Positions 1 through 15,936 of a stretch of DNA of 64,000 nt are shown piece by piece. Position numbers and translations under genes: made by a program. The notes beneath the pieces were generated by a model that was not told where the DNA came from, did no database searches, and saw only the letters and a list, made by a program, of their open reading frames with translations. The DNA lies in the NCBI RefSeq assembly GCF_033705735.1, contig NZ_CP131131.1:1612001-1676000 (forward strand). The letters run 5' to 3'. Source of the stretch: Shinella zoogloeoides (GTDB lineage Bacteria; Pseudomonadota; Alphaproteobacteria; Rhizobiales; Rhizobiaceae). The first letter of the stretch is position 1, and each line of letters starts with the position of its first letter.

Positions 1-212
1 ATCTCGCCGCCGGAAACGGCGAGCGGCTTCTTCAACAGCCCCATGACGGCGAGCGACGTCACCGACTTGCCCGAGCCGGATTCGCCGACGAGCCCGTAGG
101 CCTCGCCCGGCATGATCTGGAAGGAGACGCCCTTGAGGAGCGGATGGGAAACCGAGCGGCCGAACGCGACGCCGAGCTGCAGGTCCCTGATGTCGAGCAG
201 CGGCTGGGTCAT
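1..212 (-). CDS. Peptide ABC transporter ATP-binding protein (DppD/OppD type), 5' part only
   Basis: This is the N-terminal 70 or so residues of a nucleotide-binding subunit, cut by the window edge. The protein begins MTQPLLDIRDLQL and shows the Walker A motif GESGSGKS, typical of the OppD/DppD family that powers oligopeptide uptake at the inner membrane. Its ATG shares four bases (209-212) with the stop of the upstream permease gene, so it is translationally coupled as the fourth gene of an amidohydrolase, binding protein, permease, permease, ATPase operon. The substrate cannot be read from this fragment. The D-peptidase genes nearby suggest peptides or modified amino acids. Confidence 0.9.
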   Translation of the reverse strand, partial: MTQPLLDIRDLQLGVAFGRSVSHPLLKGVSFQIMPGEAYGLVGESGSGKSVTSLAVMGLLKKPLAVSGGE

Positions 213-1030
213 GGCCTGCGCGTCCTCATATGCGGGTCGAGGCTGTCGCGCAGGCCATCGCCGAGAAGGTTGAAGCCGAGCACCGAAAGGAAGATGGCAA
301 GGCCGGGGAAGAGCGCCACCCAGGGCGCGAGCTGGATGAGCTGGCGCGCATCCGTCAGCATCGAGCCCCAGCTCGGGAACGGCGGCTGGATGCCGAGGCC
401 GAGGAAGGAGAGCGCCGCTTCCGACAGTACCGCCGAGCCCATGCCGAGCGTCGCCATGACGAGGATCGGCCCCATCATGTTGGGCAGGATCTGCGTGAAC
501 ATGATGCGCAGGTCCCCGTAGCCGAGCGTCTGCGCCGCCTGCACATAGCCCTGCGATTTCAGCGACAGCGTCGAGGAGCGGGCGATGCGGCAGGTCCAGC
601 TCCAGTTGGTGAGGCCGAGCGCGACGAGGAGCGAGGGCAGGCCCGGGCCGAGCACCGCCATCACCGCGAGCGCGAAGATCAGCGAGGGAATGGCGAGCAT
701 GACATTGGTGAGGCCGTTGACGAGGTCGTCCCACCAGCCGCCCCAATAGCCGGCGGTCATGCCGAGCGTGACGCCGATGATCGAGTTGATCACCTGCGAG
801 ACGATGCCGACCGTCAGCGAGATCTGCGCGCCGTAGAGGATGCGGGTATAAACGTCCCGCCCCTGCCCGTCCGTGCCGAACCAGAAGGTGGCGTCCGGCG
901 GCAGTTCGGAATTCATCAGGTCCGCGTCGAGCACCGGATCGAAGGGCGCGATCCACGGCGCGAGGACACCGGCGAGGATCACCAGCACCGTCAGCCCCGC
1001 GCCGAGCCAGAAGTTGAAGCCGAGGCGCAT
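209..1030 (-). CDS. Peptide ABC transporter permease, DppC/OppC type
   Basis: This 273-residue inner-membrane permease has an N-terminal membrane segment followed by a periplasmic stretch with the DppC hallmark FGTDGQGRDVYTRI. The C-terminal half has several membrane helices and the cytoplasmic EAA-type loop that docks the ATPase. I chose the start at 1030 (MRLGFNFWLG) because it lies five bases after the upstream permease stop; the frame stays open further upstream but only antisense to that gene. It forms the translocation channel with the DppB-type partner. The dipeptide/oligopeptide family is clear; the exact ligand is unknown. Confidence 0.92.
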   Translation of the reverse strand: MRLGFNFWLGAGLTVLVILAGVLAPWIAPFDPVLDADLMNSELPPDATFWFGTDGQGRDVYTRILYGAQISLTVGIVSQVINSIIGVTLGMTAGYWGGWWDDLVNGLTNVMLAIPSLIFALAVMAVLGPGLPSLLVALGLTNWSWTCRIARSSTLSLKSQGYVQAAQTLGYGDLRIMFTQILPNMMGPILVMATLGMGSAVLSEAALSFLGLGIQPPFPSWGSMLTDARQLIQLAPWVALFPGLAIFLSVLGFNLLGDGLRDSLDPHMRTRRP

Positions 1031-1035
1031 TCCGC

Positions 1036-1971
1036 TCACTCCTGCTTGATGCGCGGATCGATCGCGGCATAGATCAGATCGACGGCGGTGTTGATGACGA
1101 GGAACCACAGCACGATGACGAGGATCGTGCCCTGCACCACGGGAATATCGCGGATCGCCACGCTGTCGACCAGCAGCGAGCCGATGCCCGGCCAGGCGAA
1201 AAGCTTCTCGATGACGACGGCCTGGCCGATCAGCGAGCCGAACTGCAGGCCGACCGTGGTGACGATCAAAACCAGCGCATTGCGCGCCACATGCCAGCGC
1301 ACCACCTTGACCTCGCTCATGCCCTTGGAATGGGCGGTGCGGATGAAGTCGGCATTCAGCACGTCGAGCACGCCCGCCCGCGTGGTGCGTGCCAGAAGCG
1401 CCAGTGGCGTCACCCCGAGCGTGACGGCGGGCAGGATGAGGTTTCGGAACGATCCGTCGCCATAGCCAAAGCTCGGCAGCCAGTTCAGTTGCAGGGCGAA
1501 AAGGTACATCAACAGCAGGCCCAGCCAGAACTGCGGCATGGAAAGCCCCGAGACCGCCCCGACCATCGTCACCGTATCGAGCACCGAGCCCGGCCGGAGC
1601 GCCGCGAGGAAGCCGAGCGGCACGCCGACGACGAGGGCGAAGACCATGGCGGCGATGGCCAGTTGCAGCGAGGCCCACATGCGGTCGTTGATGAGGTCGA
1701 TCACCGGCTGGCGGGTGCGGAAGGAGGTGCCGAGGTCGAAACGCGCAAGGTCGGTGACATAGGTCACGAAGCGCTCGACGAGCGGCTTGTTCAGCCCGAA
1801 CTCCTCGTTGAGGCGGGCGATCATCTGCGGGTCGGCGGCGCGCTTGCCATCGGCGAAGAGGCTCGCCGCGAAGGTGCCGGGCACCACGGAGAAGATGACG
1901 AAGATGAGCAGCGCCACCACGACGACCGTGGGGATGACCTGCAGGATGCGGCGCAGGGTGAAGCGTAGCAT
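1036..1971 (-). CDS. Peptide ABC transporter permease, DppB/OppB type
   Basis: The 311-residue protein starts MLRFTLRRILQ, the usual beginning of DppB-family permeases, and has a first membrane helix rich in valine and leucine. It then has the family's conserved external segment (GLNKPLVERF, FDLGTSFRTRQPV) and a permease core ending in DLIYAAIDPRIK. I chose 1971 over an upstream ATG at 2010 because the family normally begins at this point. It lies between the binding-protein gene and the DppC gene in one minus-strand operon. A stem-loop at 2017-2044 separates it from the binding-protein gene. Confidence 0.9.
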   Translation of the reverse strand: MLRFTLRRILQVIPTVVVVALLIFVIFSVVPGTFAASLFADGKRAADPQMIARLNEEFGLNKPLVERFVTYVTDLARFDLGTSFRTRQPVIDLINDRMWASLQLAIAAMVFALVVGVPLGFLAALRPGSVLDTVTMVGAVSGLSMPQFWLGLLLMYLFALQLNWLPSFGYGDGSFRNLILPAVTLGVTPLALLARTTRAGVLDVLNADFIRTAHSKGMSEVKVVRWHVARNALVLIVTTVGLQFGSLIGQAVVIEKLFAWPGIGSLLVDSVAIRDIPVVQGTILVIVLWFLVINTAVDLIYAAIDPRIKQE

Positions 1972-2016
1972 GAGCGGTTCCGTGTTGGGCGCCCTTGCGG
2001 GGCGCGACAATCGATG

Positions 2017-2044
2017 CGGGGGCGGCCTGAAGGTGCCGCCCCCG
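2017..2044 (-). terminator. Stem-loop between binding-protein and permease genes
   Basis: The arms CGGGGGCGGC and GCCGCCCCCG pair perfectly over 10 bp around an 8-nt loop. The structure lies just downstream of the binding-protein stop codon. There is no T-run after it on the minus strand, so it is more likely a processing or mRNA-stabilising element that allows excess binding protein than a full terminator. That role is inferred from well-known cases such as malE-malF. Confidence 0.5.
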
Positions 2045-2057
2045 AACCCCTCAAGGC

Positions 2058-3650
2058 TTATTTGCGCGAGTCCGGCGCGGTCTCGTCGATCCAGATCTCG
2101 TCATAGGGCTGGACCGCCAGCTCGTTCGCATTCGGAACGAGGCCGTGGATCCACGGCTGGTAGGCCATGACGGCCTTGTTGTAGTTGAAGAACCAGACCG
2201 GCGCGTCGTCCTGCACGATGTTGTTGGCCTGGCGCAGGAGATCGTTCTGCTTGGCCGGGTCACGTTCCTGCACGGCCGCATCGTAGAGCTTGTCGAATTC
2301 GGGGCTCGCATAGCTCGTATAATTGCAGGCCGATTGCGCCGTCCTGGAATGGTAGCAGCGCAGCGCGTTCAGCGGGTCGGGACCGGACAGGTTCGACCAG
2401 ATGAAGGCCTGGAAGTTGTTCGTCGTCACCGCCTCGCCGAGGGCGGAGCTTTCCACCGGCTTCGGCTTCACGGTGATGCCGACCTTCTTCAGCATCGGCA
2501 GGATCGCCTCGACGATCGGCACGCCCCAGCTTTCGTTCGGGCTTGCCGTGACTTCGAACTCGAAGCCGTCGGCATAGCCGGCTTCCGCCAGCAGCGCCTT
2601 GGCCTTTTCCGGATCGAAGGCATAGGGCGCCTTGTCCTTGTCGAAGGCCGGCGAGGAGATCGGCAGCCAGCCGGAGGCCGGATAGGCCTTGTTCTTGACG
2701 AGGCGCTCGATGATCAGCGGCGAATTGATCGCATAGTTGATCGCCTGGCGGACCCGCTTGTCCTTGAAGGGCTCGAAGGCCGGGTTGAAGCCGATGTTGC
2801 GGGTATAGACCTCGGCGACCTCGAGGAGATGATCCTTCAGTCCCTCCTCGCCCTGATAGGCCTGGTACTGCGTCGGGCCGAGGATCGAGGCGTCGATTTC
2901 CTTGTTGCGGAAGGCGACGTCGCGCGCGGCGTCCTCGGCCATCAGCACGATGTTGATGCGGTCGAGATAGGGCTTGCCTTCCTCGTAGTACTTGTCGAAC
3001 TTCTCGACGACGACCTGCGAGCCCGGCACATGTTCCTTGAAGACGAAGGCGCCGAGGCCGACGGGGTTCTTGCCGAAAGAGGATTCGTCCTCGACATTCG
3101 ACGGATAGATGACCGTCGTGTTCTGCATCAGCGGGAAGCCCGGATTGATCGGGCCGGTATAGGTGATCTCCAGCGTGTTGTCGTCGATCTTCTTCAGGCC
3201 GGAAATCTCCTCGGCCTTGCCGGCGATATAGTCGTCCGCGCCATTGATGTTGGCGATGAAGCTAGCGCCCGGGAAGGCGTTCTTCGGATTGGCGATGCGC
3301 TTGTAGCTGTAGACGATGTCGTCGGCCGTCAGCGGCTTGCCGTTGTGGAAGACGGCGTTCTTGCGCAGGTGATAGGTATGGGTCGTGCCGTCCTCGGAGA
3401 CTTCTTCGGAATCGGCGAGTTCCAGCACCGGCTTGTTCTGGATGGAGTCCCAGCTGTAGAGCGCGCGGTGGATGGCCTGGGTGATGAATTCTTCCTGCGT
3501 GTTCGGGCTTGCCTGTACGTCGAGCGTCGCGAAGCTCGAGCCGTAGGGCGCGGTGAAGACGAGCGTTCCGCCGGAACGTTCACCCGCTGCCAGCGCCCCG
3601 GTAGCCACCCCGAGGCCGAGCATTGCGGCCAATGTCAGTCTTTTCAGCAT
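2058..3650 (-). CDS. Periplasmic peptide-binding protein (ABC family 5 solute-binding)
   Basis: This 530-residue exported protein begins with a Sec signal peptide (MLKRLTLAAMLGLGVATGALAAG). The mature part has the SBP_bac_5 signature region around the phrases HTYHLRKNAVFHNGKPLTADD and FKDKRVRQAINYAINSPLI, as in DppA/OppA binding proteins. It delivers ligand to the permeases encoded downstream. The start at 3650 is supported by a purine-rich ribosome site (GGGAGAACGAA). It lies 56 bases after the amidohydrolase gene and probably belongs to the same transcript. The ligand is unassigned. Confidence 0.93.
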   Translation of the reverse strand: MLKRLTLAAMLGLGVATGALAAGERSGGTLVFTAPYGSSFATLDVQASPNTQEEFITQAIHRALYSWDSIQNKPVLELADSEEVSEDGTTHTYHLRKNAVFHNGKPLTADDIVYSYKRIANPKNAFPGASFIANINGADDYIAGKAEEISGLKKIDDNTLEITYTGPINPGFPLMQNTTVIYPSNVEDESSFGKNPVGLGAFVFKEHVPGSQVVVEKFDKYYEEGKPYLDRINIVLMAEDAARDVAFRNKEIDASILGPTQYQAYQGEEGLKDHLLEVAEVYTRNIGFNPAFEPFKDKRVRQAINYAINSPLIIERLVKNKAYPASGWLPISSPAFDKDKAPYAFDPEKAKALLAEAGYADGFEFEVTASPNESWGVPIVEAILPMLKKVGITVKPKPVESSALGEAVTTNNFQAFIWSNLSGPDPLNALRCYHSRTAQSACNYTSYASPEFDKLYDAAVQERDPAKQNDLLRQANNIVQDDAPVWFFNYNKAVMAYQPWIHGLVPNANELAVQPYDEIWIDETAPDSRK

Positions 3651-3706
3651 TTCGTTCTCCCTCTCGTGCCGTTTTCGGCATCGTTTCGTTTCAGTCCGGC
3701 AGGCCG

Positions 3707-5332
3707 TCAGCGCGCATCGTGCACGACGCGGCCTGCAAGCAGGGTCAGCAGGCAGCGCGTGCCTGAGAGAATGGTGTCTGTCGGGGCCTCCAGAAGATCG
3801 TTGTCGAAGACGGCGATGTCCGCCCACTGGCCGGGCACGAGCCGGCCCTTCACGCCCTCCGCCTTCTGCGAATAGGCGCCGTATTCGGTATAGGCCTGCA
3901 GGGCCTCCTCGCGGCTCAGCGTCTCGGATGCCTCCATCACCGTGCCCTTGCCGGTCTCGCGCGTCACCATGGCGTGGAGGTTCGGGAAGGGATCGGGCGA
4001 GCAGACCGGCGAATCCGAGCCGGTCGAGGGCTTGAGACCGAGGCGCATCCAGGTGCCGATGGGGTAGGACGGAAGGCCGCGCTCCTCGCCGAGCACCGCG
4101 ATATAGCTGTCGCCGAAATCGTGGATGAAGGCCATCTGCGGCGCCGGCAGGATGCCCGCCGCCTTCATGCGCTCATGCTGCTCGGGCGTTGAAAAGCCGC
4201 AATGCTCGATGCGGTGGCGGCGATCCGGGTCGGGATTGCCAGCCAGCGCCTTCTCGTAGGCGGTGATGAGCTGCTCGATCGCCCCGTCGCCGATGGCGTG
4301 GCAGACCATCTGGTAGCCCCGGTCGTGATAGTCCTTGACGGCGGCATAGACCACCTCGTCGGGCAGCATCTGCACGCCGATATTGTCCGGCTCGCCCTCA
4401 TAGGGCTTCGTCATCCAGGCCGTGCGCCCGCCGGCCGAGCCGTCGAGGAAGACCTTGACGCCGCCGACGCGCAGCATGTCGTCGCCCTTGCCCGAAAGCA
4501 GCCCGGCGCGCCAGCAATCCTCGACGATGGAGACGCCGGGATCGCCGAGCAGCGTCAGCCAGACGCGCACCGGCAGGCGGCCGGCGAGCTTGGCCATCTC
4601 ATAGGCCTGGATCTCGGCAAAGCCGGCGACATGGCCGACGGCCGCGTCCATGCAGCTCGTGATGCCGAAGGCGAGAAGGTGCCTGCCGCCGCGCTCGATG
4701 CCGTCGATCAGCTCCTCGGTCGTCGCCTCGGGCATTACGGCCTTGACGAGGTTCTGTGCATTTTCCGCAAGCAAGCCGTTCAGCCTGCCATCGGTGAGGC
4801 CGATCACGCCGCCATCCGGCACCGGCGTCGCCTCGGTGATGCCCGCCAGCTCCAGCGCGCGTGAATTGGCGATGGAGACATGGCCGCAGGCCCGCGTCAG
4901 CAGGACCGGATGATCCGGCGCGGCGCGGTCGAGATCCTCGCGGGTCGGGTGCCGGCCGGTATCGAGCTTGACCTGGTCGTAGCCGCGGCCGCGCACCCAA
5001 GCCCCCTTCGGCGTCGCCGCCGCACGCTCGGAAATCCGCGCCATGAGGTCGGCGAGCGTCGGCGCGGCGGCGGGCGTCGCATCCACATGGCCCATGGCGA
5101 TGCCGGTGGCGATGAGATGCAGGTGATTGTCGATGAGGCCGGGGCTCGCAAAGCGGCCTTCGAGATCGATGACCTCGGTCGAGGGGCCCTTGAGGCCCAG
5201 GATATCGGCATTGCTGCCGGTTGCGAGAACCTTTCCCTGCCAGACGGCAAGGGCTTCGCTGATGCCCTCCGCACGGCCGCGCCAGATGCGGCCATTCACC
5301 AGGATAAGATCAGCTTCAATTCCGAATGCCAT
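3707..5332 (-). CDS. Amidohydrolase family 3 protein (YtcJ/N-acyl hydrolase-like)
   Basis: The 541-residue protein is a metal-dependent amidohydrolase. An N-terminal beta-sandwich strand (LILVNGRIWRG) leads to the metal-binding HxH motif at His70-Leu-His72 (LIDNHLHL). Later histidines include CHAIGDGAIEQ and RRHRIEHCGF, and the C-terminus is composite (GQWADIAVFDNDL). The Amidohydro_3 family cleaves N-substituted amides, formamides or cyclic amides; the exact substrate cannot be told. It is the first gene of the operon with the peptide importer and is divergent from the LysR gene at 5575. One 41-nt element (5472-5512) lies in the shared promoter region. Confidence 0.9.
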   Translation of the reverse strand: MAFGIEADLILVNGRIWRGRAEGISEALAVWQGKVLATGSNADILGLKGPSTEVIDLEGRFASPGLIDNHLHLIATGIAMGHVDATPAAAPTLADLMARISERAAATPKGAWVRGRGYDQVKLDTGRHPTREDLDRAAPDHPVLLTRACGHVSIANSRALELAGITEATPVPDGGVIGLTDGRLNGLLAENAQNLVKAVMPEATTEELIDGIERGGRHLLAFGITSCMDAAVGHVAGFAEIQAYEMAKLAGRLPVRVWLTLLGDPGVSIVEDCWRAGLLSGKGDDMLRVGGVKVFLDGSAGGRTAWMTKPYEGEPDNIGVQMLPDEVVYAAVKDYHDRGYQMVCHAIGDGAIEQLITAYEKALAGNPDPDRRHRIEHCGFSTPEQHERMKAAGILPAPQMAFIHDFGDSYIAVLGEERGLPSYPIGTWMRLGLKPSTGSDSPVCSPDPFPNLHAMVTRETGKGTVMEASETLSREEALQAYTEYGAYSQKAEGVKGRLVPGQWADIAVFDNDLLEAPTDTILSGTRCLLTLLAGRVVHDAR

Positions 5333-5471
5333 TCACAGTCCCCCTGTCGGCACCGGCGGAGCGCGGAAACGCGATCACACACGCAACAGCGCTGAACGCT
5401 CCTGCGGCAAGACGGCTCCAGCCAGCACCTATTTCCTCCATAGGCAAGGTGAGAGGTTAAGCCGGCCTTGG

Positions 5472-5512
5472 CCAATTCGCTTTTGGCACCACTCTATGCG
5501 AAATCGGCATAG
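5472..5512. promoter_or_regulatory. 41-nt conserved element, copy A (candidate LysR operator)
   Basis: This stretch lies between the divergent amidohydrolase and LysR genes. It matches 9299-9339 without gaps at 30 of 41 positions. The most conserved blocks are CCAATTC, TTT, GGCA, TATGC and GC-TAG. An inverted repeat TATGC-N7-GCATA (5495-5511) sits inside it, the kind of short dyad that LysR regulators bind. The assignment to the adjacent LysR protein is inference. Confidence 0.6.
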
Positions 5513-5574
5513 TGATTTCTATTGAATGACTTATGATCGCATTTTGGGGCGCGCGGGAGGCGATGGAGCCGGCG

Positions 5575-6510
5575 ATGGAGATCAAGTGGCTTGAGGATTT
5601 CGTGACGCTTGCCGACACGTCGAGCTTTTCGCGCGCGGCTCAATTGCGCAATGTCACGCAGCCGGCCTTCAGCCGGCGCATCAAGCAGCTGGAAGGCTGG
5701 CTCGGCGCCACGCTGATCAGCCGCGCCACCATGCCCGCGGAACTCACACCGGCCGGGCGCAACTTCCTGCCCGTCGCGCAGGAGGCGATCCGCACCTTCT
5801 ATGCGGCGCGCGAGGCGCTTCGTCCGTCGAACGAGCCCGGCCTCATCCGCTTCGCCGCGCTGCATACGCTGACCGTCACCTTCTTTCCGCGCTGGCTGCA
5901 GGCGCTGGAAAAGGCCGGCGGCGCCTTCAGTACCTCGCTCATTCCCGACCGCGGCGGCATCGAGGCCAATCTCGACGCGCTCATCGGCGACGAGGCGGAT
6001 TTCTTCTTGACCTATGCCCATCCCGAAGTGCCGTTCCACCTCGATCGTGGGCAGTTCGCCTCGCTGACCGTCGCCCAGGACCGGCTGGTTCCGCTCGTGG
6101 CGACGGAGATCGTGCTGTCCGGCACGCCGCAGCCGGGGCGCAACATCCTCGACCGGGCCGTCGCGCAGCCGCGGCTTGCCGTTCCCTATCTCAGCTACGG
6201 CTTCAATTCGTTCTTCGGCGTCGCGCTCTCGCGCCTCATGCTGCGCCGCCCACCCTTCCGCCGCCGCACGACGCATGAGAACACGATCAGCGCCGGCCTG
6301 ATGAACATGGCCGTGACGGGGGCCGGCGTGTGCTGGCTGCCGGAAAGCCTTGCGCGCGACGAAATAGAAGCCGGCCGCCTCGTGCCCGCCTCGGCGGACG
6401 AGGGCTGGAACCTCGACCTCGACATCCGCCTCTATCGGCACGCCGCGCCGCGCAACCGCAAGGTCGAGGACCTGTGGCGCATGGCGCAGCAGGCACTGGA
6501 AAGCGCCTGA
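5575..6510 (+). CDS. LysR-family transcriptional regulator
   Basis: The 311-residue protein opens with the LysR winged helix-turn-helix: MEIKWLEDFVTLADTSSFSR, then NVTQPAFSRRIKQLE as recognition helix. A periplasmic-binding-like effector domain follows from about residue 90. The start at 5575 gives the family-typical MEIKWLEDF beginning, with GGAG six bases upstream; ATGs at 5563 and 5533 are possible but worse placed. It is divergent from the amidohydrolase-transporter operon and convergent with the D-aminopeptidase operon, whose stop codon abuts its own at 6508-6513. It is the best candidate to bind the repeated 41-nt element. Confidence 0.92.
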   Translation: MEIKWLEDFVTLADTSSFSRAAQLRNVTQPAFSRRIKQLEGWLGATLISRATMPAELTPAGRNFLPVAQEAIRTFYAAREALRPSNEPGLIRFAALHTLTVTFFPRWLQALEKAGGAFSTSLIPDRGGIEANLDALIGDEADFFLTYAHPEVPFHLDRGQFASLTVAQDRLVPLVATEIVLSGTPQPGRNILDRAVAQPRLAVPYLSYGFNSFFGVALSRLMLRRPPFRRRTTHENTISAGLMNMAVTGAGVCWLPESLARDEIEAGRLVPASADEGWNLDLDIRLYRHAAPRNRKVEDLWRMAQQALESA

Positions 6511-7311
6511 TCAGACCTTGAGGAAGAGCAGCGCGCGCAGGATCTCGGAAAAGTCCCTGTGCTCGAAGGCGACAGCGCGGGGGCCGTGCGCCTTGGCGCC
6601 CGGATACCAGCCGGCGCGATAGGCCTCCGTCGGCGTGGCGAACTCGATGACCACCTCATAGTGATCGGGCCTTGCCGGAAGCGCCTGCGCGAAATCGCCC
6701 GAGAGCGCCGCCGCCACGCCTTCGCGGATCAGGCGGCGCGACCAGACGGGCGAGATCGACGTGGAGGCCTTGCCCCTGCCGTCCAGCGTCTCGACCGCGG
6801 CAAGGCCGGGCACCATGGCCCGCGCCTCCGCGCACATGCCGACATCGCCCGAAAGGAAGACGGACGGCACGCCGTAGCCGGCGGCACAGAGCGCATTGAA
6901 GGTGAATTCCGAGGCGACCTCGCCGTTGAGCAGCAGCCGCGAGATGCGCAGGTTCGACGTATGGGCGAGCGGATTGACCTCCGTCCCCGCCTTGGAATGG
7001 TAGCCGGTATAGAGCGCCGCCGCGAAGGTTTCATCGATGCCGAACATCATCTCGTCGGGATGGCCGGACCAGCCGCGCACGATGCGGGCATAATCCGGCA
7101 GGCGGTCGAGGATGAGATTGCGGCCGCTGTCATGGGCGTCCTTGATCACCACTTCCGTCGCGCCGGCAGCCCGCGCGCCCTCGCAGGCGGCAACCACCTC
7201 GGCGGTCATCAGGGCACGGAACTCGGCCCAGTCGGGGTGGGCGCGGTCGGCCTCGTTCCAGTGGGCGATACCGGCGGTGCCTTCGATATCTGCGGAGATG
7301 AAGACTTTCAT
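6511..7311 (-). CDS. dppA: D-aminopeptidase, DppA-type (M55 family)
   Basis: The 266-residue protein matches the zinc D-aminopeptidase DppA of Bacillus subtilis in length and motifs. Residues Asp8 and Glu10 lie in FISADIEG, His60 in IKDAH, His105 in YTGYHSK and Glu131 in LLLNGE, where the family's metal ligands lie. Such enzymes release N-terminal D-residues, for example from D-Ala-D-Ala, in the cytoplasm. Its start overlaps the stop of the DmpA-type gene by four bases, so the two are coupled. It should not be confused with the E. coli dppA binding protein of the same symbol. Confidence 0.93.
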   Translation of the reverse strand: MKVFISADIEGTAGIAHWNEADRAHPDWAEFRALMTAEVVAACEGARAAGATEVVIKDAHDSGRNLILDRLPDYARIVRGWSGHPDEMMFGIDETFAAALYTGYHSKAGTEVNPLAHTSNLRISRLLLNGEVASEFTFNALCAAGYGVPSVFLSGDVGMCAEARAMVPGLAAVETLDGRGKASTSISPVWSRRLIREGVAAALSGDFAQALPARPDHYEVVIEFATPTEAYRAGWYPGAKAHGPRAVAFEHRDFSEILRALLFLKV

Positions 7312-8345
7312 GGCAGCGGGTTCTCCTTGAGCCAGTCGGCGAGCGAGGGATAGAGGCGGCCGTTGCGGGCGGGCGTGGCGGGCGCCATGCAGAGCGCGTT
7401 CAGCACGGCCTCCTGCGTGGTCTCGGCGGCGGCGCGGAAAGCGATGTCGATATGGTCGTCGGCAAGCCGCTCCTGCGTGGAAAAGGCCCTGGCCGGATCG
7501 TGCTCCACCGGATCGGCGGTGGTGAAACAGAGGACGACGTCGCCGCTGCCATGCCCCCAGAACGCGCCGAGCCGGGCAAGCCCCGCCCCACCGCGCCGCG
7601 CGACGCGCTGCAACTGGCGGTCGCCGAGCGGAAGGTCCGTCGCCATGACGACGATCACCGAGCCGCGTTCCGGATTGATTGGCGCGCGCGGATCGGGCCG
7701 GCGTCCGTCCGGCAGGACGAGATCGCCCGCCGCGCCGAAATTGGCGAGCACCAGCGTGCCGAGCGTGAAATCGCGCTTGCCGATGCGCATCAGCCGCGAG
7801 GCCGTGCCGATACCGGCCTTGAAGCCGAAGGCGGTCATGCCGGAGCCCGCCCCGACCGCGCCCTGCTCCACCGGACCGGGCTTCGCCGCATCCAGAGCCG
7901 CCTCGGCATCGGCGGGCGTCACCGCCAGCGCCTGGATATCGTTGATGCTGCCGTCGTTGCACTCGCAGACCAGCGCATTGACCGTCGAGGTCTTGCGGCC
8001 GATGGCGGGATTGGCGGCGATGGCGCGGCGGATGAGTGCCTCGGTGCAGGCCGCGACGCCGAAGGTGTTGGTGAGCAGGATCGGCGTTTCGATGGTGCCG
8101 AGCTCGGCCACCTGCATCAGGCCGGCCGACTTGCCGAAGCCGTTGATGACCTCGACCGCCGCCCGCGGCTTCAGGCGGAACGGATCGTCGGCATGGGGAA
8201 CGATGGCCGTGACGCCGGTGAAGCGCCCATCGCCGCGCAGCGAGCGATGGCCGACGGCAACGCCGGCAACGTCCGTGATGGCATTGCCCGGTCCCGGCGC
8301 GAGCCTTCCTTCGGGCATCAAGCCCCATTCCCGTGCCGTCTTCAT
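7308..8345 (-). CDS. dmpA: P1-family peptidase, DmpA/BapA-type self-processing aminopeptidase
   Basis: This 345-residue protein belongs to the Ntn-fold P1 family (DmpA, L-aminopeptidase/D-esterase and beta-aminopeptidases). These cleave their own precursor before a serine that becomes the nucleophile. The expected site is Gly228-Ser229 in ERGSVIVVMATDLPL. Other family segments are PGPGNAITDVAGVAVGH at residues 17-33 and the glycine-rich GAGSGMTAFG near 166. DmpA members accept N-terminal D- or L-residues or beta-amino acids. It is the middle gene of a transaminase, DmpA, DppA operon. The D-preference is inferred from context. Confidence 0.88.
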   Translation of the reverse strand: MKTAREWGLMPEGRLAPGPGNAITDVAGVAVGHRSLRGDGRFTGVTAIVPHADDPFRLKPRAAVEVINGFGKSAGLMQVAELGTIETPILLTNTFGVAACTEALIRRAIAANPAIGRKTSTVNALVCECNDGSINDIQALAVTPADAEAALDAAKPGPVEQGAVGAGSGMTAFGFKAGIGTASRLMRIGKRDFTLGTLVLANFGAAGDLVLPDGRRPDPRAPINPERGSVIVVMATDLPLGDRQLQRVARRGGAGLARLGAFWGHGSGDVVLCFTTADPVEHDPARAFSTQERLADDHIDIAFRAAAETTQEAVLNALCMAPATPARNGRLYPSLADWLKENPLP

Positions 8346-8371
8346 GCCGCCCCTCCCAGCTCTTTCCGTTC

Positions 8372-9223
8372 CTAAACCGGAACGCCGGCCGCTTCCAGAT
8401 AGAGGGCCTGGAGTTTTCGCGTCATCGGGCCGGGCCTGCCATCGCCGACCGTGCACTCGCCGATGCGCACGACGGGCATGACGAGGCTGGAGGCGGAGGT
8501 CTGGAACGCCTCGGCGGCGCCCTGCGCCTCTTCCGGCGAAAAGGCGCGCTCCTCGATGGTGAGCCCCTCGGCGGCGCAGAGCCGGGCAAGGGCGCGCTGC
8601 GTGCAGCCGGGCAGCGTCGCCTGCGAGGCGGCGCGGGTGAGGATGCGCCCGTCGGCGGTGATGACATGGGCCGTCGCAGATGCGCCCTCCGTCACCAGTC
8701 CGCCCTCCACCAGCCATACGTCGTCGAAGCCACGGGCGCGCGCTGCCTGCTTGGCCATGACCTGGCCGAGCAGCATGGCGGTCTTGATATCCCGCCGCTG
8801 CCAGCGCGGATCCTCTGCCAGATCGACGGAAATGCCCTCCCGCTGGCCTTTGGTGCCGGTCAGCACCTTTGCCTGCGTGAAGCCGACGAGCCGCGGCGCG
8901 AGCCCGTCCGAATAGAAGAAGTCGCGGTCCGCCTCGCCGCGCGAGACATGCAGGTAGATCGTGCCGTCCCGCAGGCCGTTGCGGGCCATCAGCTCCATCT
9001 GCACTGCGGCGATCTCCTCCATCGGCAGCGGCAGCGGAATGGCGAGTTCCCCCACCGAGCGTTCGAGACGGGCAAGATGAAGGTCGTTGTCGATCATCCG
9101 GCCGTTGATGACGGCCGTCACCTCGTAGATGGCATCGCCGAACAGGAAGCCGCGGTCGAAAAGCCCGATGCGGGCCTCCTCCTCCGGCACGAATTGACCG
9201 TGGATATAGACGATCCTGCCCAT
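8372..9223 (-). CDS. dat: D-amino acid aminotransferase (class IV PLP transaminase)
   Basis: The 283-residue protein has the layout of D-alanine transaminase. Its N-terminus is MGRIVYIHGQFVPEEEARI, with the FDRGFLFGDAIYEV segment. The PLP lysine is Lys147 in RRDIKTAMLL, and the class IV signature is near EGGLVTEGASATAHVI. It would swap the amino group of D-amino acids onto a 2-oxo acid, turning D-residues released by the two downstream peptidases into common metabolites. The start at 9223 has AGGAAGAG just upstream. A branched-chain or 4-amino-4-deoxychorismate role is possible in this family, but the length and neighbours favour D-amino acids. Confidence 0.85.
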   Translation of the reverse strand: MGRIVYIHGQFVPEEEARIGLFDRGFLFGDAIYEVTAVINGRMIDNDLHLARLERSVGELAIPLPLPMEEIAAVQMELMARNGLRDGTIYLHVSRGEADRDFFYSDGLAPRLVGFTQAKVLTGTKGQREGISVDLAEDPRWQRRDIKTAMLLGQVMAKQAARARGFDDVWLVEGGLVTEGASATAHVITADGRILTRAASQATLPGCTQRALARLCAAEGLTIEERAFSPEEAQGAAEAFQTSASSLVMPVVRIGECTVGDGRPGPMTRKLQALYLEAAGVPV

Positions 9224-9298
9224 CTCTTCCTCTTGGCTCCGGCTGCGCGGGACTGCCCCGCTTTCGCGCGGACCATAGGAACGACCGGCATCGGCTGA

Positions 9299-9339
9299 CC
9301 AATTCAATTTGGGCAGGACCTTATGCAAATTCTGCCTAG
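9299..9339. promoter_or_regulatory. 41-nt conserved element, copy B
   Basis: This is the second copy of the element at 5472-5512, placed about 80-115 bases upstream of the D-amino acid transaminase start. It shares 30 of 41 positions without gaps. Its inner dyad is TATGC-N7-GCCTA, one base off the perfect form in copy A. It lies in the gap between the DAP stop codon and the transaminase gene, so it probably marks a separate promoter for the transaminase-peptidase operon. Confidence 0.6.
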
Positions 9340-9358
9340 GCTATTATCTTTCAGAAGC

Positions 9359-10921
9359 TTAGCTGCATTTTTCATAGCCGATGCCGCGCGCCAGCCAGCA
9401 ACCGAGCGTCAGGCCGGCAATGCGTCCGGCCTCGTCGCGATGGGCTTGCAGGGTCCAGTCGCCGGGCGCCGGCGCGTCCATCGAGCGCCGCGTCGCGACG
9501 ATCCAGAGGTCCGGCCCGGCCGGCAGGACGATCTCCGGACGGCCTGTCCCGAGGAAACCCTCGGCCCAGAGATAGGTGCCGCCATCCCGGCATTCGATGA
9601 CGATGCCGGCATCCAGCTCCGCGGAATGGTAGCGTCCGGCGATCTCCGTCGAACCGACCGGCGGCGCGGCGGCTACCGGCATCAGCCGCTCGGCAAGGTT
9701 TTCCGAGGGGCGCCGCATCAGGATATCCTCGCCCTCCCGACTGATCGTGACGGAGGCGGAGGCAAGGCCGCCCTCCGGCACCTCCCAAAGCGTTTCCGGC
9801 GATGTGGCGAAACGCAGGGTGGCCGCGTCGTATCCCGATTCCAGCCGCGCCAGCAGCCCGGTCTCGCGGCTGAGCCACCGGCCCGTCCAGCGCTCCTTGA
9901 GGGGCTGGGCGACGGGATGCGGCAGGCCGAGCGCCGCGCGCAGGATCCGGTGGGCCGCACCATAGGCATCGCCGTGATGGTTGAACATGACGACAACCGA
10001 AAGCCGCGCCTCGGTCGAGGCGATGCGGTAGGCGCGGAAGCCGCGCAGGGCGCCACTGTGGCCAGTGAAGGCGAAATCGCCGACGCGCGCATGCTGCAGG
10101 CCGAAACCATAGGCCGCCGGGGCACCGTCGCGGAAGGTCTGCGGCACGGCGATGCGCCGGTAGAGGCTTTCCGGGTCCTCGCGCGTCGCGTCGATCCAGC
10201 ATTCATAGGCCAGCATGTCGTCGAGCGAGGCGGAAATGCCGGCATCGCCCCGCCAGTAGATGCTGTTTTCCGCCGGCATGTAGCCCGTCGCGTCATTGCC
10301 CTCATAGCCGACGACACCGTCTTCCGGCCGGCGCGTATCGGCCGTCAGCACCGCGCCCGCCATGCCGGCCGGCTGCCAGATGTGGCGCGCATAAAGCGCC
10401 TCCAGCGTCTCGCCGGAAGCCTCCTCGACGAGTTCGGCGACGAGCCGGAAATTGCCGTTGCTATAGGAATAGCGCGTGCCCGGCGCGAAATGCCCGGTGC
10501 GCGTGCGGGCAAAGACCTTCGCCGCATCCCCGCGCGAGAATTCCTGCTCGGCCTTCGCGCCATGCAGCACGGTCAGCGCCCAGTAGTCGCGCAGACCAGA
10601 CTGGTTGTTGCAGAGGTCGCGCACCGTCGGCAGGGGGCCCTCGAAATTCGGCAGGCGCGCGGCGAGCCGTTCGTCGAGCGCCTCCGGCGCGCCGCAGGCG
10701 GCAAGCATCGCCGCGCAGGTGAACTGCTTGGAGACCGAGCAGATCGGCAGCCGCGTTGCCGCGGTCATCGCCCGATGCGTGTCGAGATCGGCAAAGCCGA
10801 AGGCCCGCCGGGCGATCACGCGCCCCTCGCTCACCACCCCGACAACGCCGCCCGGACCGGAAAAGCGCGCCGCAAGCCCGTCCAGCTCCGCCTCGATCCG
10901 CCCGCCGTCGATCATGCCCAT
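9359..10921 (-). CDS. dap: D-stereospecific aminopeptidase DAP (S12 family, penicillin-recognising fold)
   Basis: The 520-residue product has the same length as Ochrobactrum anthropi DAP. Its catalytic residues fall at the numbers I recall for that enzyme: Ser62 and Lys65 in CSVSK, and Tyr153 in the YSN motif. The third motif, HSG, begins at His288. Beyond about residue 330 come the beta-barrel domains that in DAP shape the active-site gorge. The family removes N-terminal D-Ala, D-Ser or D-Thr from peptides and amides. No signal peptide is visible, so it acts in the cytoplasm. The start at 10921 has GAGGGAGA upstream. A plain class C beta-lactamase is excluded by the long C-terminal part. Confidence 0.9.
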   Translation of the reverse strand: MGMIDGGRIEAELDGLAARFSGPGGVVGVVSEGRVIARRAFGFADLDTHRAMTAATRLPICSVSKQFTCAAMLAACGAPEALDERLAARLPNFEGPLPTVRDLCNNQSGLRDYWALTVLHGAKAEQEFSRGDAAKVFARTRTGHFAPGTRYSYSNGNFRLVAELVEEASGETLEALYARHIWQPAGMAGAVLTADTRRPEDGVVGYEGNDATGYMPAENSIYWRGDAGISASLDDMLAYECWIDATREDPESLYRRIAVPQTFRDGAPAAYGFGLQHARVGDFAFTGHSGALRGFRAYRIASTEARLSVVVMFNHHGDAYGAAHRILRAALGLPHPVAQPLKERWTGRWLSRETGLLARLESGYDAATLRFATSPETLWEVPEGGLASASVTISREGEDILMRRPSENLAERLMPVAAAPPVGSTEIAGRYHSAELDAGIVIECRDGGTYLWAEGFLGTGRPEIVLPAGPDLWIVATRRSMDAPAPGDWTLQAHRDEAGRIAGLTLGCWLARGIGYEKCS

Positions 10922-11012
10922 GCGCGTCTCCCTCGATTCTTCCGGCCGGATATTGGTCAGCGCCGGCAGGCGAGGCAACTCCTCAAATTCGCCAACGCCG
11001 GAAGATACCGGC

Positions 11013-11029
11013 ATTGCCGGTTCGGCAAT
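11013..11029. promoter_or_regulatory. Palindromic candidate Lrp operator
   Basis: The sequence ATTGCCG-GTT-CGGCAAT is a perfect inverted repeat of 7-bp arms and a 3-nt centre, the form Lrp/AsnC sites often take. A half-site CGGCAAT recurs at 11064-11070. It lies between the divergent DAP and lrp genes, about 90 bases upstream of the DAP start. Confidence 0.55.
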
Positions 11030-11096
11030 TTTTCCAACCCAATCTTCCGAAGCGGGATATTTTCGGCAATGTTTCCCGGTGACGGCTGAAATATTC

Positions 11097-11125
11097 TTGA
11101 CATAATTCCGTTTCGGAAATTTACT
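11097..11125 (+). promoter_or_regulatory. Candidate sigma-70 promoter of the Lrp gene with an embedded dyad
   Basis: A consensus -35 box TTGACA (11097-11102) is followed after 17 bases by TTTACT as a weak -10. The spacer carries a second dyad, TTCCG-TTT-CGGAA (11106-11118), whose CCG-NTT-CGG core matches the palindrome at 11013. A regulator bound there would cover the promoter, which suggests autoregulation. Confidence 0.5.
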
Positions 11126-11143
11126 CCTCCCATTCAGGCCGAA

Positions 11144-11659
11144 ATGGAACCGGAAATGAGCCAGCGCTACATCATCGACGATCTGGACCGTGAGATCATC
11201 CGCTATCTCTCCGAGGACGGCCGTCTTTCGGCGGCGGAAATCGCCGGCCGGATCGGCAGCGTCTCCGAGCGCACGATCCGCAACCGCATTGCCACCCTGC
11301 TGCAGGCGAAGATGATCGTCATCGGCGCCATTCCCGATCCTGTCGCCCTTGGGCGCGATGTTCAGGTGGAATTGCTCATCGAGGTCGAGGCGGGTCGGCA
11401 GGAAGAGGTCGCCATCCAGCTCGCCGAATATGACGAGATCGGCTACCTCGCGGCGACCAGCGGCACGGCCAATCTCAGCGCCTCGCTCTTCGTCGCCGAC
11501 CATGCGGCGCTTCTCGAATTCATCGACCAGGAGCTGGGCAAGCTGCCCGGCGTCAAGCGCGTGACGAGCTCGGTGGTCCTGCGGCTCTACAAGGTATTCG
11601 GCACGAGGACGACCGCGATCAGCCGCGGCTCGGACCTCGGCGGCAAGAAGAAAGGATAA
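11144..11659 (+). CDS. Lrp/AsnC-family transcriptional regulator
   Basis: The 171-residue protein has an N-terminal helix-turn-helix (IIRYLSEDGRLSAAEIAGRI, then VSERTIRNRIATL). It ends in a RAM ligand-binding domain (VQVELLIEVEAGRQEEVA ... KLPGVKRVTSSVVLR). Such proteins sense amino acids and form octamers on DNA. An internal ATG at 11156 (MSQRYIIDD) is an equally good start. The gene is divergent from DAP and directly upstream of the HyuA-like gene (3-nt gap). It probably controls DAP, itself and the downstream operon. Confidence 0.92.
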   Translation: MEPEMSQRYIIDDLDREIIRYLSEDGRLSAAEIAGRIGSVSERTIRNRIATLLQAKMIVIGAIPDPVALGRDVQVELLIEVEAGRQEEVAIQLAEYDEIGYLAATSGTANLSASLFVADHAALLEFIDQELGKLPGVKRVTSSVVLRLYKVFGTRTTAISRGSDLGGKKKG

Positions 11660-11662
11660 CCC

Positions 11663-13207
11663 ATGCTGCGCATTGGGGTGGATGTGGGCGGAACCAACAC
11701 GGATGCAGCGCTGCTGCGCGGCACCGAGGTTCTGGCGACGGTGAAGTCCTCGACCACGGCAGACGTGACCTCGGGCGTCAGCGCGGCCATCCGCACGGTG
11801 CTCGCCGAGGCGGGCGTCGCCGCCGGCTCGGTCGATGCCGTCATGATCGGCACCACGCATTTCCTCAATGCCGTCGTCGAAGGCCGGCATCTGGAAAAGG
11901 TCGGCGTGCTGCGCCTTTGCGGCGCCTCCACCCGGTCCCTGCCGCCGATGATCGACTGGCCGGACACGCTCCGCCCCGTCGTCGACGGCGGCGCGGCGCT
12001 GGTCGGCGGCGGCGTCAACTATGACGGCTCGGAGATCGCCCCGCTCGACGGTCCGGCGATCCGTGAGGCCTGCCGCGACTGGCGCGCCCGCGGCATCGGC
12101 GCCGTCGCCATCTGCTCCGTCTTCGCGCTGGTCGATCCGCGCATGGAAAACGAGGCTGCCGAGATCGTCGCCGAGGAAATGCCGGAGGCGGCGATCAGCC
12201 TGTCGCACCGCGTCGGCCGCACGGGCCTCCTGCCGCGCGAGAGCGCCACCATCCTCAATGCCAGCCTCCACACGCTCGGCCGCGAGACGGTCGGCGCCTT
12301 CCGCTCGGCGTTTTCCGCGCTCGGCCTTAACTGCCCGCTCTACCTCACCCAGAATGACGGCACGCTGATGACGGCGGACTTCGCCGAGCGTTATCCGGTC
12401 TTCACCATCGCCTCCGGCCCGACCAATTCCATGCGGGGTGCGGCCTTCCTCACCGGGCTTTCCGACGCCGCGGTGATCGACATCGGCGGCACCACCACCG
12501 ATATCGGCATGCTGGTCGCCGGCTTCCCGCGCACCCGCAGCGAGGGCGCGATGATCGGCGGCGTGCCGACCAATTTCCGCGTGCCCGACGTCTATTCCTT
12601 CGGCCTCGGCGGCGGCAGCATCGTGCGGCCCGGCGACGCGCCTACGGTCGGCCCGGATTCGGTCGGCTTCCGTCTGCCGGAAAAGGCGCTCTCGTTCGGC
12701 GGCGACACGCTGACGGCGACCGACATCGCGGTGGCCGCCGGCCTCGTCGATCTCGGCGACCGCGACCACCTTTCGCAGATCACGCCCGATTTCGCCCGCC
12801 GGATGCTGGCGCAGATGAAGGCGAGCATCGAGACGGTGCTCGACCGCATGAAGCCGAGCGCGGAGCCGATCCCGGCCATCCTCGTCGGCGGCGGTTCGGT
12901 GCTCGTCGACGGGCTGCTGGAGGGCACCTCCGTCTCGCTGAAGCCGGATCACTTCGGCTCGGCCAATGCCATCGGCGCGGCCATCGCGCAGGTCTCCGGT
13001 GAGGTCGACAGCGTGGTCTCGCTGGAAGGCACGACGCGCGAGAAGGCGCTCGAAAGCGTGGTGGCCGAGGCGCGCGCCCGCGCGGTCGAGGCGGGCGCTG
13101 CGGCCGAGACGGTGACGCTGGCCGAAATCGAGGAGACGCCGCTGGCCTACCTGCCCGGCAATGCCGTGCGCATCGCGGCGAAAGTCATTGGAGAACTCAG
13201 GGCATGA
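11663..13207 (+). CDS. Hydantoinase/oxoprolinase family protein (HyuA-like, short form)
   Basis: The 514-residue protein starts with the phosphate-binding loop of the ASKHA fold (RIGVDVGGTNTDAALL). A second glycine-rich motif (VIDIGGTTTDIGML) lies near residue 273. This marks the hydantoinase A/5-oxoprolinase family, which uses ATP to open cyclic amides. At 514 residues it is shorter than the roughly 700-residue HyuA proteins and lacks their C-terminal region. It overlaps the DUF917 gene by four bases, a pairing often seen for this short form. The substrate is unknown; a lactam, hydantoin or cyclic dipeptide would fit the neighbours. Confidence 0.85.
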   Translation: MLRIGVDVGGTNTDAALLRGTEVLATVKSSTTADVTSGVSAAIRTVLAEAGVAAGSVDAVMIGTTHFLNAVVEGRHLEKVGVLRLCGASTRSLPPMIDWPDTLRPVVDGGAALVGGGVNYDGSEIAPLDGPAIREACRDWRARGIGAVAICSVFALVDPRMENEAAEIVAEEMPEAAISLSHRVGRTGLLPRESATILNASLHTLGRETVGAFRSAFSALGLNCPLYLTQNDGTLMTADFAERYPVFTIASGPTNSMRGAAFLTGLSDAAVIDIGGTTTDIGMLVAGFPRTRSEGAMIGGVPTNFRVPDVYSFGLGGGSIVRPGDAPTVGPDSVGFRLPEKALSFGGDTLTATDIAVAAGLVDLGDRDHLSQITPDFARRMLAQMKASIETVLDRMKPSAEPIPAILVGGGSVLVDGLLEGTSVSLKPDHFGSANAIGAAIAQVSGEVDSVVSLEGTTREKALESVVAEARARAVEAGAAAETVTLAEIEETPLAYLPGNAVRIAAKVIGELRA

Positions 13208-14325
13208 AGTACTGGACGCTCACCGAGGCGGATATCGACCGGATCGCGGTCGGCTGCGGCATTCTCGGCACCGGCGGCGGCGGCAGCACCTATCACGGCT
13301 CTCTGCGCGCCAAGGCGCTGCTGCGCGAGGGCAAGCGCATCCGCATGGTGCGCCCGGCCGACATGGCGCCGGACGCGCAGATCATCGGGATCGGCGGCAT
13401 CGGCGCGCCGACCGTCGGCATCGAGAAGATCGCCGAGGGCGGCGAGGGCGTGCGCCTGATGCATGCACTCGAACGGCATATGGGCCGCAAGGTCGATGCG
13501 CTGCTCGGCGACGAGGTGGGCGGCGGCAACGGCATCGCGCCGATGCTGACGGCGGCCATGGTCGACCTGCCGGTGGTGGACGCCGACGGCATGGGCCGCG
13601 CCTTCCCCGAAGTGCAGATGACGACCTTCTTCATCCACGGCCAGCCGGTGCAGCCGGCGGCGCTCGCCGATGCCGACGGCAACGTGCTGATCGTCACCGA
13701 GGCGACCACGCCGAAGATGCTGGAAAAGCTTTTGCGCGCCAGCACCATCGCCATGGGCTGCACGGCGCTGATGACGACAGCGCCGATGTCCGGCGACTTC
13801 GTGCGCCGCTTCGGCGTGCCGCACACGACGAGCCAGGCCTGGAGCCTCGGCAATGCGGTGCTGAACGCCCGCGCCGCCAAGGAGGATCCGGTCGAGGCGA
13901 TCCTCAGGCAATCCGGCGGCATGCGCCTGATGCGCGGCAAGGTCACCGACATCGCCCGCCGCGTCAGCGCCGGCTTCAACCGCGGCACGCTGACCGTCGC
14001 CGGGCTCGACGAGGATGCGGGACGCTCGATCGCCATCGAGATCCAGAACGAATATCTCATCGCCCGCGAGGGCGAGACGATCATCACAATGGTGCCGGAT
14101 CTGATCTGCATCGTGGATTCGGAGACCGGCCGCGCCATCGGCACGGAAGAGCTGCGCTACGGCCTGCGCATCGACGTGCTCTCCATGCCCGCGCCGGTGC
14201 TGCTGCGCAGCGAGATCGCGCTGGAATCCGTTGGCCCGCGGGCCTTCGGCTATGATTTCGACTTCGTGCCCGTCGGCATATCCGCCGATGCGCCCGCCGT
14301 TCCGCAATATGAAGAAGACGCCTGA
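13204..14325 (+). CDS. DUF917-family protein
   Basis: This 373-residue protein matches the DUF917 family: the N-terminus contains ILGTGGGGSTYHGSL, and a central segment reads LLGDEVGGGNGIAPM. DUF917 proteins occur next to hydantoinase/oxoprolinase-like genes, as here, and no reaction is firmly assigned to the family as far as I know. The start overlaps the stop of the HyuA-like gene (ATGA), so the two products are likely made in step and may form a complex. There is no signal peptide. Confidence 0.85.
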   Translation: MKYWTLTEADIDRIAVGCGILGTGGGGSTYHGSLRAKALLREGKRIRMVRPADMAPDAQIIGIGGIGAPTVGIEKIAEGGEGVRLMHALERHMGRKVDALLGDEVGGGNGIAPMLTAAMVDLPVVDADGMGRAFPEVQMTTFFIHGQPVQPAALADADGNVLIVTEATTPKMLEKLLRASTIAMGCTALMTTAPMSGDFVRRFGVPHTTSQAWSLGNAVLNARAAKEDPVEAILRQSGGMRLMRGKVTDIARRVSAGFNRGTLTVAGLDEDAGRSIAIEIQNEYLIAREGETIITMVPDLICIVDSETGRAIGTEELRYGLRIDVLSMPAPVLLRSEIALESVGPRAFGYDFDFVPVGISADAPAVPQYEEDA

Positions 14326-14357
14326 CCGTCCGCCCACCAACCTCCCGGGAGACCGAC

Positions 14358-15920: not shown

Positions 15921-15936
15921 GGCTTACGGCGGTCCG

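Follow-up and report, generated by a model that had tools for sequence, protein, structure and literature searches.

A putative LysR-controlled two-operon locus for D-residue-containing peptides in Shinella zoogloeoides

The window analyzed here, a 64,000-nucleotide stretch of the Shinella zoogloeoides genome (contig NZ_CP131131.1, positions 1,612,001 to 1,676,000), begins with a peptide importer of the ATP-binding cassette (ABC) type, an amidohydrolase (AH3), a LysR-type regulator, peptidases of the M55, P1/S58 and S12 families and a class IV D-amino acid transaminase (DAAT), followed by an Lrp gene. A sequence-only reading had named these genes and proposed that they form one pathway for D-residue peptides; all of them were found where that reading placed them, with Pfam scores far above the cut-offs. 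Two copies of a putative operator were also found. The features are as follows, in window positions:

1 to 212, minus strand: importer ATPase gene 1 (DppD-like), cut by the window start
209 to 1030, minus strand: ABC permease, DppC-like, co-conserved with the module in relatives
1036 to 1971, minus strand: ABC permease, DppB-like, also co-conserved with the module in relatives
2058 to 3650, minus strand: periplasmic peptide-binding protein, SBP_bac_5 (Pfam, 316 bits)
3707 to 5332, minus strand: amidohydrolase AH3, Amidohydro_3 (Pfam, 431 bits), first gene of the importer operon
5468 to 5511, minus strand: putative operator 1, pointing to the amidohydrolase-importer operon and containing ATGC-N7-GCAT
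5575 to 6510, plus strand: LysR-type regulator, the presumed binder of both operators
6511 to 7311, minus strand: M55 D-aminopeptidase of the DppA family (Pfam M55, 277.3 bits against a cut-off of 25)
7308 to 8345, minus strand: P1/S58 peptidase of the DmpA superfamily, overlapping the M55 gene by 4 bp (Pfam Peptidase_S58, 345.5 bits)
8372 to 9223, minus strand: class IV DAAT (Aminotran_4, 158 bits)
9295 to 9338, minus strand: putative operator 2, in the gap between the DAP and DAAT genes and pointing to DAAT-S58-M55
9359 to 10921, minus strand: S12 D-aminopeptidase DAP, outside the operator (Beta-lactamase 165 bits, DAP_B 162 bits)
11144 to 11659, plus strand: Lrp, first gene of a different operon

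The importer operon extends beyond the window start, with two ATPase genes. The LysR protein has HTH_1 and LysR_substrate domains (Pfam), and its gene is convergent with the M55 gene and divergent from the amidohydrolase gene; the start at 5575 was chosen by inspection in an open reading frame that opens at 5533, and searches were run from 5578. Residues D8, E10, H60, H105, H117 and E135 of the M55 protein aligned with residues of DppA (1HI9) that we take to be the zinc ligands and the catalytic His. The protein scored 137 bits against the NCBIfam cut-off of 430 for the Bacillus DppA equivalog, and it is therefore a member of the M55 family and not an equivalog of Bacillus DppA. The S58 protein, which had no match in NCBIfam, keeps the Gly-Ser cleavage motif (RGS at 227-229, aligned with ERGS of 1B65); its structure matches were 2DRH (236 bits), DmpA (193 bits) and BapA (138 bits), the nearest, 2DRH, carrying the name "361aa long hypothetical D-aminopeptidase".

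The DAAT passed the cut-off of the NCBIfam model PRK06680, "D-amino-acid transaminase" (331.6 against 320), and fell below that of the equivalog TIGR01121 (201.5 against 277.5). Its K147 and R100 correspond to Lys145 and Arg98 of 1DAA, of which Lys145 is presumably catalytic and Arg98, together with His100, presumably forms the carboxylate trap. DAP scored 684 against a cut-off of 443 for NCBIfam PRK13128, "D-aminopeptidase", and aligned over its full length with the Ochrobactrum anthropi enzyme (1EI5). With the start at 10921, Ser62, Lys65 and Tyr153 have exactly the numbers given in the sequence-only reading, and S62, K65, Y153 and H288 were invariant in an alignment of 14 sequences. The window DAP shares 96% identity with the DAP of strain PQ7. 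The nearest solved structures to the amidohydrolase were 3ICJ and 3IGH, each named an uncharacterized metal-dependent hydrolase; its identification as a D-aminoacylase (N-acyl-D-amino acid deacylase) found no support, as none was among the PDB or NCBIfam matches at E 0.001.

Since only the binding protein, of the proteins read, begins with an N terminus that by eye resembles a signal peptide, the enzymes of the module are probably cytoplasmic. The genome has one M55 gene, one DAP_B gene and two S58 genes, the second at 29% identity, and class IV aminotransferases at six places, the nearest paralog of the DAAT being 37% identical.

The gap of about 240 bp between the LysR and AH3 genes contains TATGCGAAATCGGCATA, and a related site is present in the DAP-DAAT gap. 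Both sites were found to be one longer 44-bp composite, YAKGC-N7-GCATR-N6-TGCCNAAANNGAATTGG, facing AH3 and DAAT, respectively. The composite includes a dyad of the T-N11-A type, the box rule for LysR-type regulators, and such a box lies in the divergent LysR-AH3 intergenic region. The dyad alone (CTATGC-N7-GCATAG, up to two mismatches) was not significant, with 2 found against 1.59 expected; therefore, the composite site was needed. ATGC-N7-GCAT was present in the LysR-AH3 gap of 26 of the 28 loci that have both genes, these being 25 distinct gaps because L003/L241, L004/L245 and L005/L243 are identical stretches. Locus L010 has a looser form, and L216 has no match to the regular expression, yet a matrix gave a 50.5-bit site there.

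Matrices were trained on relatives' sites, with L010 and L216 excluded for misfit to the regular expression and, in the cross-test, the three nearest loci (L003, L241 and L242) excluded as well, which left 21 distinct AH3 and 15 distinct DAAT sites. In the window, the AH3-trained matrix gave 67.2 bits at the AH3 promoter and 29.0 bits at the DAAT promoter, with the next best site in the 64 kb at -9.0, and the DAAT-trained matrix gave 66.6 bits at the DAAT promoter and 29.5 bits at the AH3 promoter, with the next best at -6.7. In a reversed control of 3.86 Mb of fetched sequence, no matrix score exceeded 2 bits. A 40-bp form of the operator, allowing up to three mismatches, occurs at exactly two places in the 5.79-Mb genome, with none in the control. 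The two operons thus have the same rare putative operator, and they therefore probably belong to one nutrient pathway. Weak matrix matches of 8.0-8.6 bits in L257 and L264 lie away from this system.

The neighborhoods of M55 genes were compared among relatives. M55 is uncommon: it passed the cut-off in 62 of 394 same-family genomes, in 8 of 249 genomes at the level of the order and 16 of 385 at that of the class, and in 13 of 21 genomes of the genus. Stretches were fetched for 67 of the 74 match rows in the family survey (own genome and six partial rows omitted), 17 of 22 in the class survey (own genome, one partial and three sub-cut-off rows omitted), 5 of 9 in the order survey (own genome, one already among the 67, one partial and one sub-cut-off omitted) and 6 of 13 in the genus survey (the remainder being the window's own or already fetched). 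Within these 95 M55 neighborhoods of at most 19.8 kb, S58 was found in 36, DAAT in 27, AH3 in 21 and DAP in 7 (one only 23% identical). S58 itself is common (370 of 394 same-family genomes); because there are only one to five matches per genome, a chance S58 neighbor within 10 kb is estimated to be rare, at about 1%. The 4-bp frame overlap of S58 and M55 was present in 29 of the 36 loci, and the other arrangements were four on the same strand (other spacing within 30 bp, further apart, or in reversed order), and two on opposite strands, with one each at 1 and 2 bp.

The M55 clade of the window has 37 rows, all with M55 by selection, of which 32 have S58, 29 LysR (at least 60% identity), 27 AH3, 22 DAAT and 12 DAP, although 5 of the 12 DAP-bearing rows came from loci picked by DAP. 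The layout is kept in Rhizobiaceae and Paracoccaceae. S58 is present in other deep M55 clades as well, in some with DAAT and importer (the L153 group; L227; L186/L188/L189/L229), and further clades have neither.

Operator 1 was found before AH3 in 26 of 27 rows of this clade, the window included. Operator 2 was found ahead of the leading gene of operon 2 in 26 of the 37, and before DAAT in 21 of 22. Sites outside the training set agree: 34.8 and 37.3 bits before S58 in Gemmobacter, 43.9 (L178), 25.8 (L192) and 27.7 bits (L204) before DAAT, and 51.3 and 54.1 bits on plasmids of Ochrobactrum and Rhizobium daejeonense. These plasmids (L258, L259), of which that of Ochrobactrum MT180101 is typed conjugative, carry a compact LysR-operator-DAAT-amino acid ABC-P1-M55 cluster, in which an amino acid importer replaces the peptide importer.

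The core pattern with one mismatch gave 46 matches in 31 of the 394 same-family genomes, and its backward control was zero in every row listed; 39 of the 46 sit at this system, in 25 genomes. This count is a minimum, and a zero in it is weak evidence that sites are missing, because the pattern overlooks real ones, for example those of G620 and G510, which the matrix located in L203 and L192. Four genomes with a core match at the system (G332, G377, G499 and G581) have no M55 match but have LysR, AH3, S58 and importer genes, with DAAT in three; in G332 the contig ends after the importer binding protein. Two further matches (L295, L296) lie near a paralogous locus, seen also in L288, with LysR, DAAT, S58, a peptide importer and then a DAP-like gene (24-27% identical to DAP overall, 26-27% at the two matches), where weaker operator-like sites precede the importer (14.8, 6.1 and 5.4 bits in L295, L296 and L288). 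Of the other five, two from one genus (L293, L294) lie beside a distant LysR gene (35% identity), which may encode a related regulator whose site is similar, and three resemble chance.

The occurrence of close LysR relatives was compared with that of the operator. Genomes G590 and G459 have M55 with the operator and no close LysR nearby; an 84%-identical LysR is on the same contig about 400 and about 680 kb away, where AH3 and importer genes adjoin it and a separate 57.5-bit operator is present. In six of the clade rows without operator 2 (L040, L049, L193, L201, L207, L215), a close LysR is missing from the locus as well. At E <= 1e-60, no LysR was found in G514, G461 or G602, which have M55 loci without the operator, nor in G591, which has no M55 match. 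None of these four genomes matched the core pattern. G512 and G554 have LysR relatives only 45-47% identical, and in G587 a 59% relative belongs to a separate LysR-DAAT-S58 locus, where the site is weak (10.5 bits). Because operator and close LysR co-occur across genomes, including the split loci of G590 and G459, the comparison points to LysR as the putative binder of both operators.

Because the operator is shared at only these two promoters of the genome, and because the synteny recurs, the importer, amidohydrolase, DAAT, P1 and M55 genes are read as one system, and it is probable that they form a LysR-controlled two-operon nutrient regulon for peptides containing D-residues. To this extent the single pathway of the sequence-only reading was retained; DAP could be attached to it only loosely, being in 12 of the 37 rows and without an operator, and Lrp fell outside. 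With more modest confidence, we lean towards a wider formulation, in which a LysR regulon of Rhizobiaceae, an Ochrobactrum plasmid and Paracoccaceae would serve peptides of mixed chirality, with one system-unique operator switching on the importer and the aminopeptidase/transaminase set, and with genes that can be split over the replicon while the operator is kept.

In the pathway that we infer, with its LysR binding, inducer, substrates, cellular location and direction, LysR would bind the composite operator before each operon. Operon 1 would then provide the amidohydrolase and the Dpp/Opp-type ABC importer, and operon 2 the DAAT, the P1/S58 aminopeptidase and the M55 D-aminopeptidase. Peptides brought in by the importer would be stripped stepwise by cytoplasmic aminopeptidases, M55 taking D-residues and S58 probably L-residues or amide- or beta-type bonds, and the transaminase would convert free D-amino acids to 2-oxo acids and D-glutamate. 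In some strains DAP, which is not under the operator, may provide a further D-aminopeptidase.

Several observations weigh against this proposal. Operator 2 is absent from 11 of the 37 clade rows, and five of these (L161, L176, L181, L216 and L217) have LysR and operator 1; therefore, operon 2 must be under other control there, and the two-operon link is not universal. M55 is missing from the otherwise similar copies L289-L292, and S58 and DAAT from L206, L212 and L214. No characterized close relative of the amidohydrolase was among its PDB matches. In the alignment of the DAAT with 1DAA, F102 replaces His100. The DmpA family includes an L-aminopeptidase; the three peptidase families were recognized correctly, but describing all three as D-active was too simple for P1/S58. 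Lastly, in a survey of the best 80 of 390 confirmed DAP stretches plus the window (81 rows), in which S58, M55, DAAT, AH3 and LysR were sought within 7 kb at identity thresholds of 30-45%, 67 rows had no module enzyme or LysR alongside DAP, although 34 of these had an ABC permease nearby.

M55 loci elsewhere bear on the substrate. Plasmids of Klebsiella and Pantoea carry DgcN-DgcA-importer-P1-M55-LysR, Skermanella has MurR/RpiR-D-AAT-importer-P1-M55-isoaspartyl peptidase, and pSymA of Sinorhizobium meliloti has a peptide importer, MurR/RpiR, M55 and ornithine cyclodeaminase, with a D-serine ammonia-lyase past a LysR gene. In Alicyclobacillus, M55 is accompanied by a peptide importer and an Lrp gene; Agrobacterium vitis carries importer-M55-isoaspartyl peptidase with no P1; and on Paracoccus aminophilus pAMI5, ABC and LysR genes lie near M55 but P1 is not annotated. 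On plasmids of Deinococcus, Lacticaseibacillus and Nonomuraea, a distant M55 was found with neither importer nor P1 alongside, that of Nonomuraea being near a D-Ala-D-Ala ligase and a dehydratase. Thus M55, often with P1, is repeatedly joined to an importer and to D-amino acid disposal, with exceptions among the records read. When ten genes near other DAP or M55 loci were scanned with Pfam, no clear substrate clue emerged.

The same regulon might specifically serve D-Ala and D-Glu peptides from peptidoglycan fragments that other bacteria shed, a possible but not the preferred narrowing of the proposal. It is favored by the DgcN/DgcA genes (for D-Glu), MurR/RpiR regulators or D-Ser ammonia-lyase at the related M55 loci, and by the muropeptide debris suggested as substrate for a similar archaeal locus (accessible text of PMC2651629). 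However, the regulator of this locus is not MurR/RpiR, and no LD-carboxypeptidase, NlpC/P60, amidase or muramyl enzyme was found among the ten module-side proteins scanned with Pfam and NCBIfam.

A different question is whether DAP belongs fully to the regulon, sharing a transcript with DAAT-S58-M55 and being required for the pathway, which we consider unlikely. At least one of S58, M55, DAAT, AH3 and LysR was within 7 kb of DAP in 14 of the 81 rows, and 12 of these 14 fall in one 17-row group of the DAP tree (SH-aLRT 86). The gene-order comparison proposed by the sequence-only reading gave recurrent synteny, with the full set, LysR included, beside DAP in Shinella (L003-L005), Rhizobium Root1334 (L008) and the window, but it did not extend to most of the DAP loci examined. 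Two Gemmobacter have the set without DAAT, two Falsigemmobacter have it without DAAT and LysR, and L007, L009, L013, L078 and L080 have partial sets. In Shinella, Root1334, Gemmobacter and Falsigemmobacter, DAP stands directly before DAAT or S58, and in the two Falsigemmobacter, which have no close LysR and no strong operator, the DAP, S58 and M55 genes are close enough for one transcript, with matches about 37 bp apart and no operator between. In Shinella, Root1334 and the two Gemmobacter, however, the operator separates DAP from the gene that follows, and DAP is therefore outside it. Placement of DAP under an operator of its own was rejected, as the best matrix score upstream of DAP was negative in all 12 DAP-bearing clade rows. 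In Shinella sp. PSBB067, moreover, the other module genes are annotated and DAP is absent at the same spot. As judged from these comparisons, DAP is a recurrent partner and not part of the core.

It is more doubtful still that the substrate is an amide, beta-peptide or N-acyl compound, with the amidohydrolase and S58 doing the main work and the D-specific families acting on a side product. The M55-less copies (L289-L292) do keep S58, amidohydrolase, LysR and importer parts, and DmpA shows D-esterase and D-amidase activity (in the accessible part of the review PMC11796326). Nevertheless, of the 32 S58-bearing clade rows 22 also have DAAT (M55 being in all 37 by selection), and other lineages tie M55-S58 to D-Glu or D-amino acid enzymes. 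That unrelated peptidase genes are together by chance is highly improbable: DAP and Lrp are looser neighbors and five relatives have LysR without operator 2, but the shared operator is unique in the genome, the layout is kept in two families, the 4-bp overlap recurs, and the two-locus version keeps both operators.

Known systems share parts of the proposed LysR regulon. The Escherichia coli ddpXABCDF system for D,D-dipeptides joins a D-peptide hydrolase to a Dpp-type importer; its hydrolase is of the VanX type, whereas the window has M55, S58 and S12. In the dpp operon of Bacillus subtilis, the M55 protein DppA is coupled to a dipeptide ABC importer, as in the window, but the operon is not known to include S58, DAAT, DAP or amidohydrolase; the regulator is another one and the M55 proteins are distant (105 bits). 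DppA is described as a D-aminopeptidase in the accessible part of PMC2651629. The same text describes the Pyrococcus abyssi gene for Pab87, a CubicO S12 D-peptidase, with genes for a pyridoxal phosphate-dependent aminotransferase, a D-aminoacylase and a dipeptide ABC transporter, and its authors propose proteolysis of cell debris containing D-residues. The likeness lies in an S12 D-peptidase with aminotransferase and dipeptide importer; the Pab87 locus differs in being archaeal, and that text describes no M55, S58, LysR or shared operator for this neighborhood, while the window S12 gene lies outside the operator.

The sequence-only reading named no described system with all of these genes in one locus; the Pab87 locus is a described analog. 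In the literature searched, with most subscription journals outside its scope, we found no account of this gene set, nor of whole D-peptide uptake and dismantling by one, and no description of a LysR regulon of this kind; the idea itself has precedents. Because of the recurrent M55 loci elsewhere and the Pab87 precedent, it is less novel and more credible.

Ochrobactrum anthropi has both DmpA and DmpB/DAP, whose coexistence is called plausible through different regulation (accessible part of the review PMC11796326). Both enzyme families thus occur in one organism there as well; in the window their genes are near neighbors, the operator is only on the operon of the S58 gene, and the S58 protein gives a higher score against 2DRH than against DmpA. 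The locus bears on that remark, since here the S58 operon has an operator and DAP has none. DgcN-DgcA serves D-glutamate catabolism (accessible text of PMC10845958) and shares a cluster with importer-P1-M55-LysR on the Klebsiella and Pantoea plasmids, but it is not annotated in the two related Shinella and R. daejeonense plasmid stretches read, where DAAT is found instead. Soil bacteria that catabolize D-amino acids are common (accessible text of PMC4912152). Operator and regulator together provide a handle on the system, as knowing what induces LysR would give an indication of the natural substrate.

The Lrp gene opens a second plus-strand operon (11144-19520) with a HyuA-like hydantoinase/oxoprolinase (N-terminal domains), an S-Me-THD/DUF917 protein and a second peptide importer, which may handle hydantoin-like or thiohydantoin compounds. 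Lrp was rejected as a member of the module, as the Lrp-HyuA/DUF917/ABC operon adjoins it only in L003/L241 (one contig) and in L242/L269 (same genus, one plasmid).

Some individual records deserve mention. On the plasmid of Klebsiella INF206 (L261:5080-7068), the match to the first importer permease is split in two by an IS5 transposase, and this importer copy looks broken; both permeases are annotated in the related Pantoea cluster. A DAAT match in two abutting pieces (L292:11633-12479) suggests a frameshift or a sequencing error. The DAP of L073, a contig filed as Bacillus subtilis SK6B4, groups with a Brucellaceae metagenome-assembled genome and is possibly contamination. In Shinella sp. 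PSBB067 (L269:20951-24798), the genes immediately past the importer encode a phosphopantetheinyl transferase and a non-ribosomal peptide synthetase.

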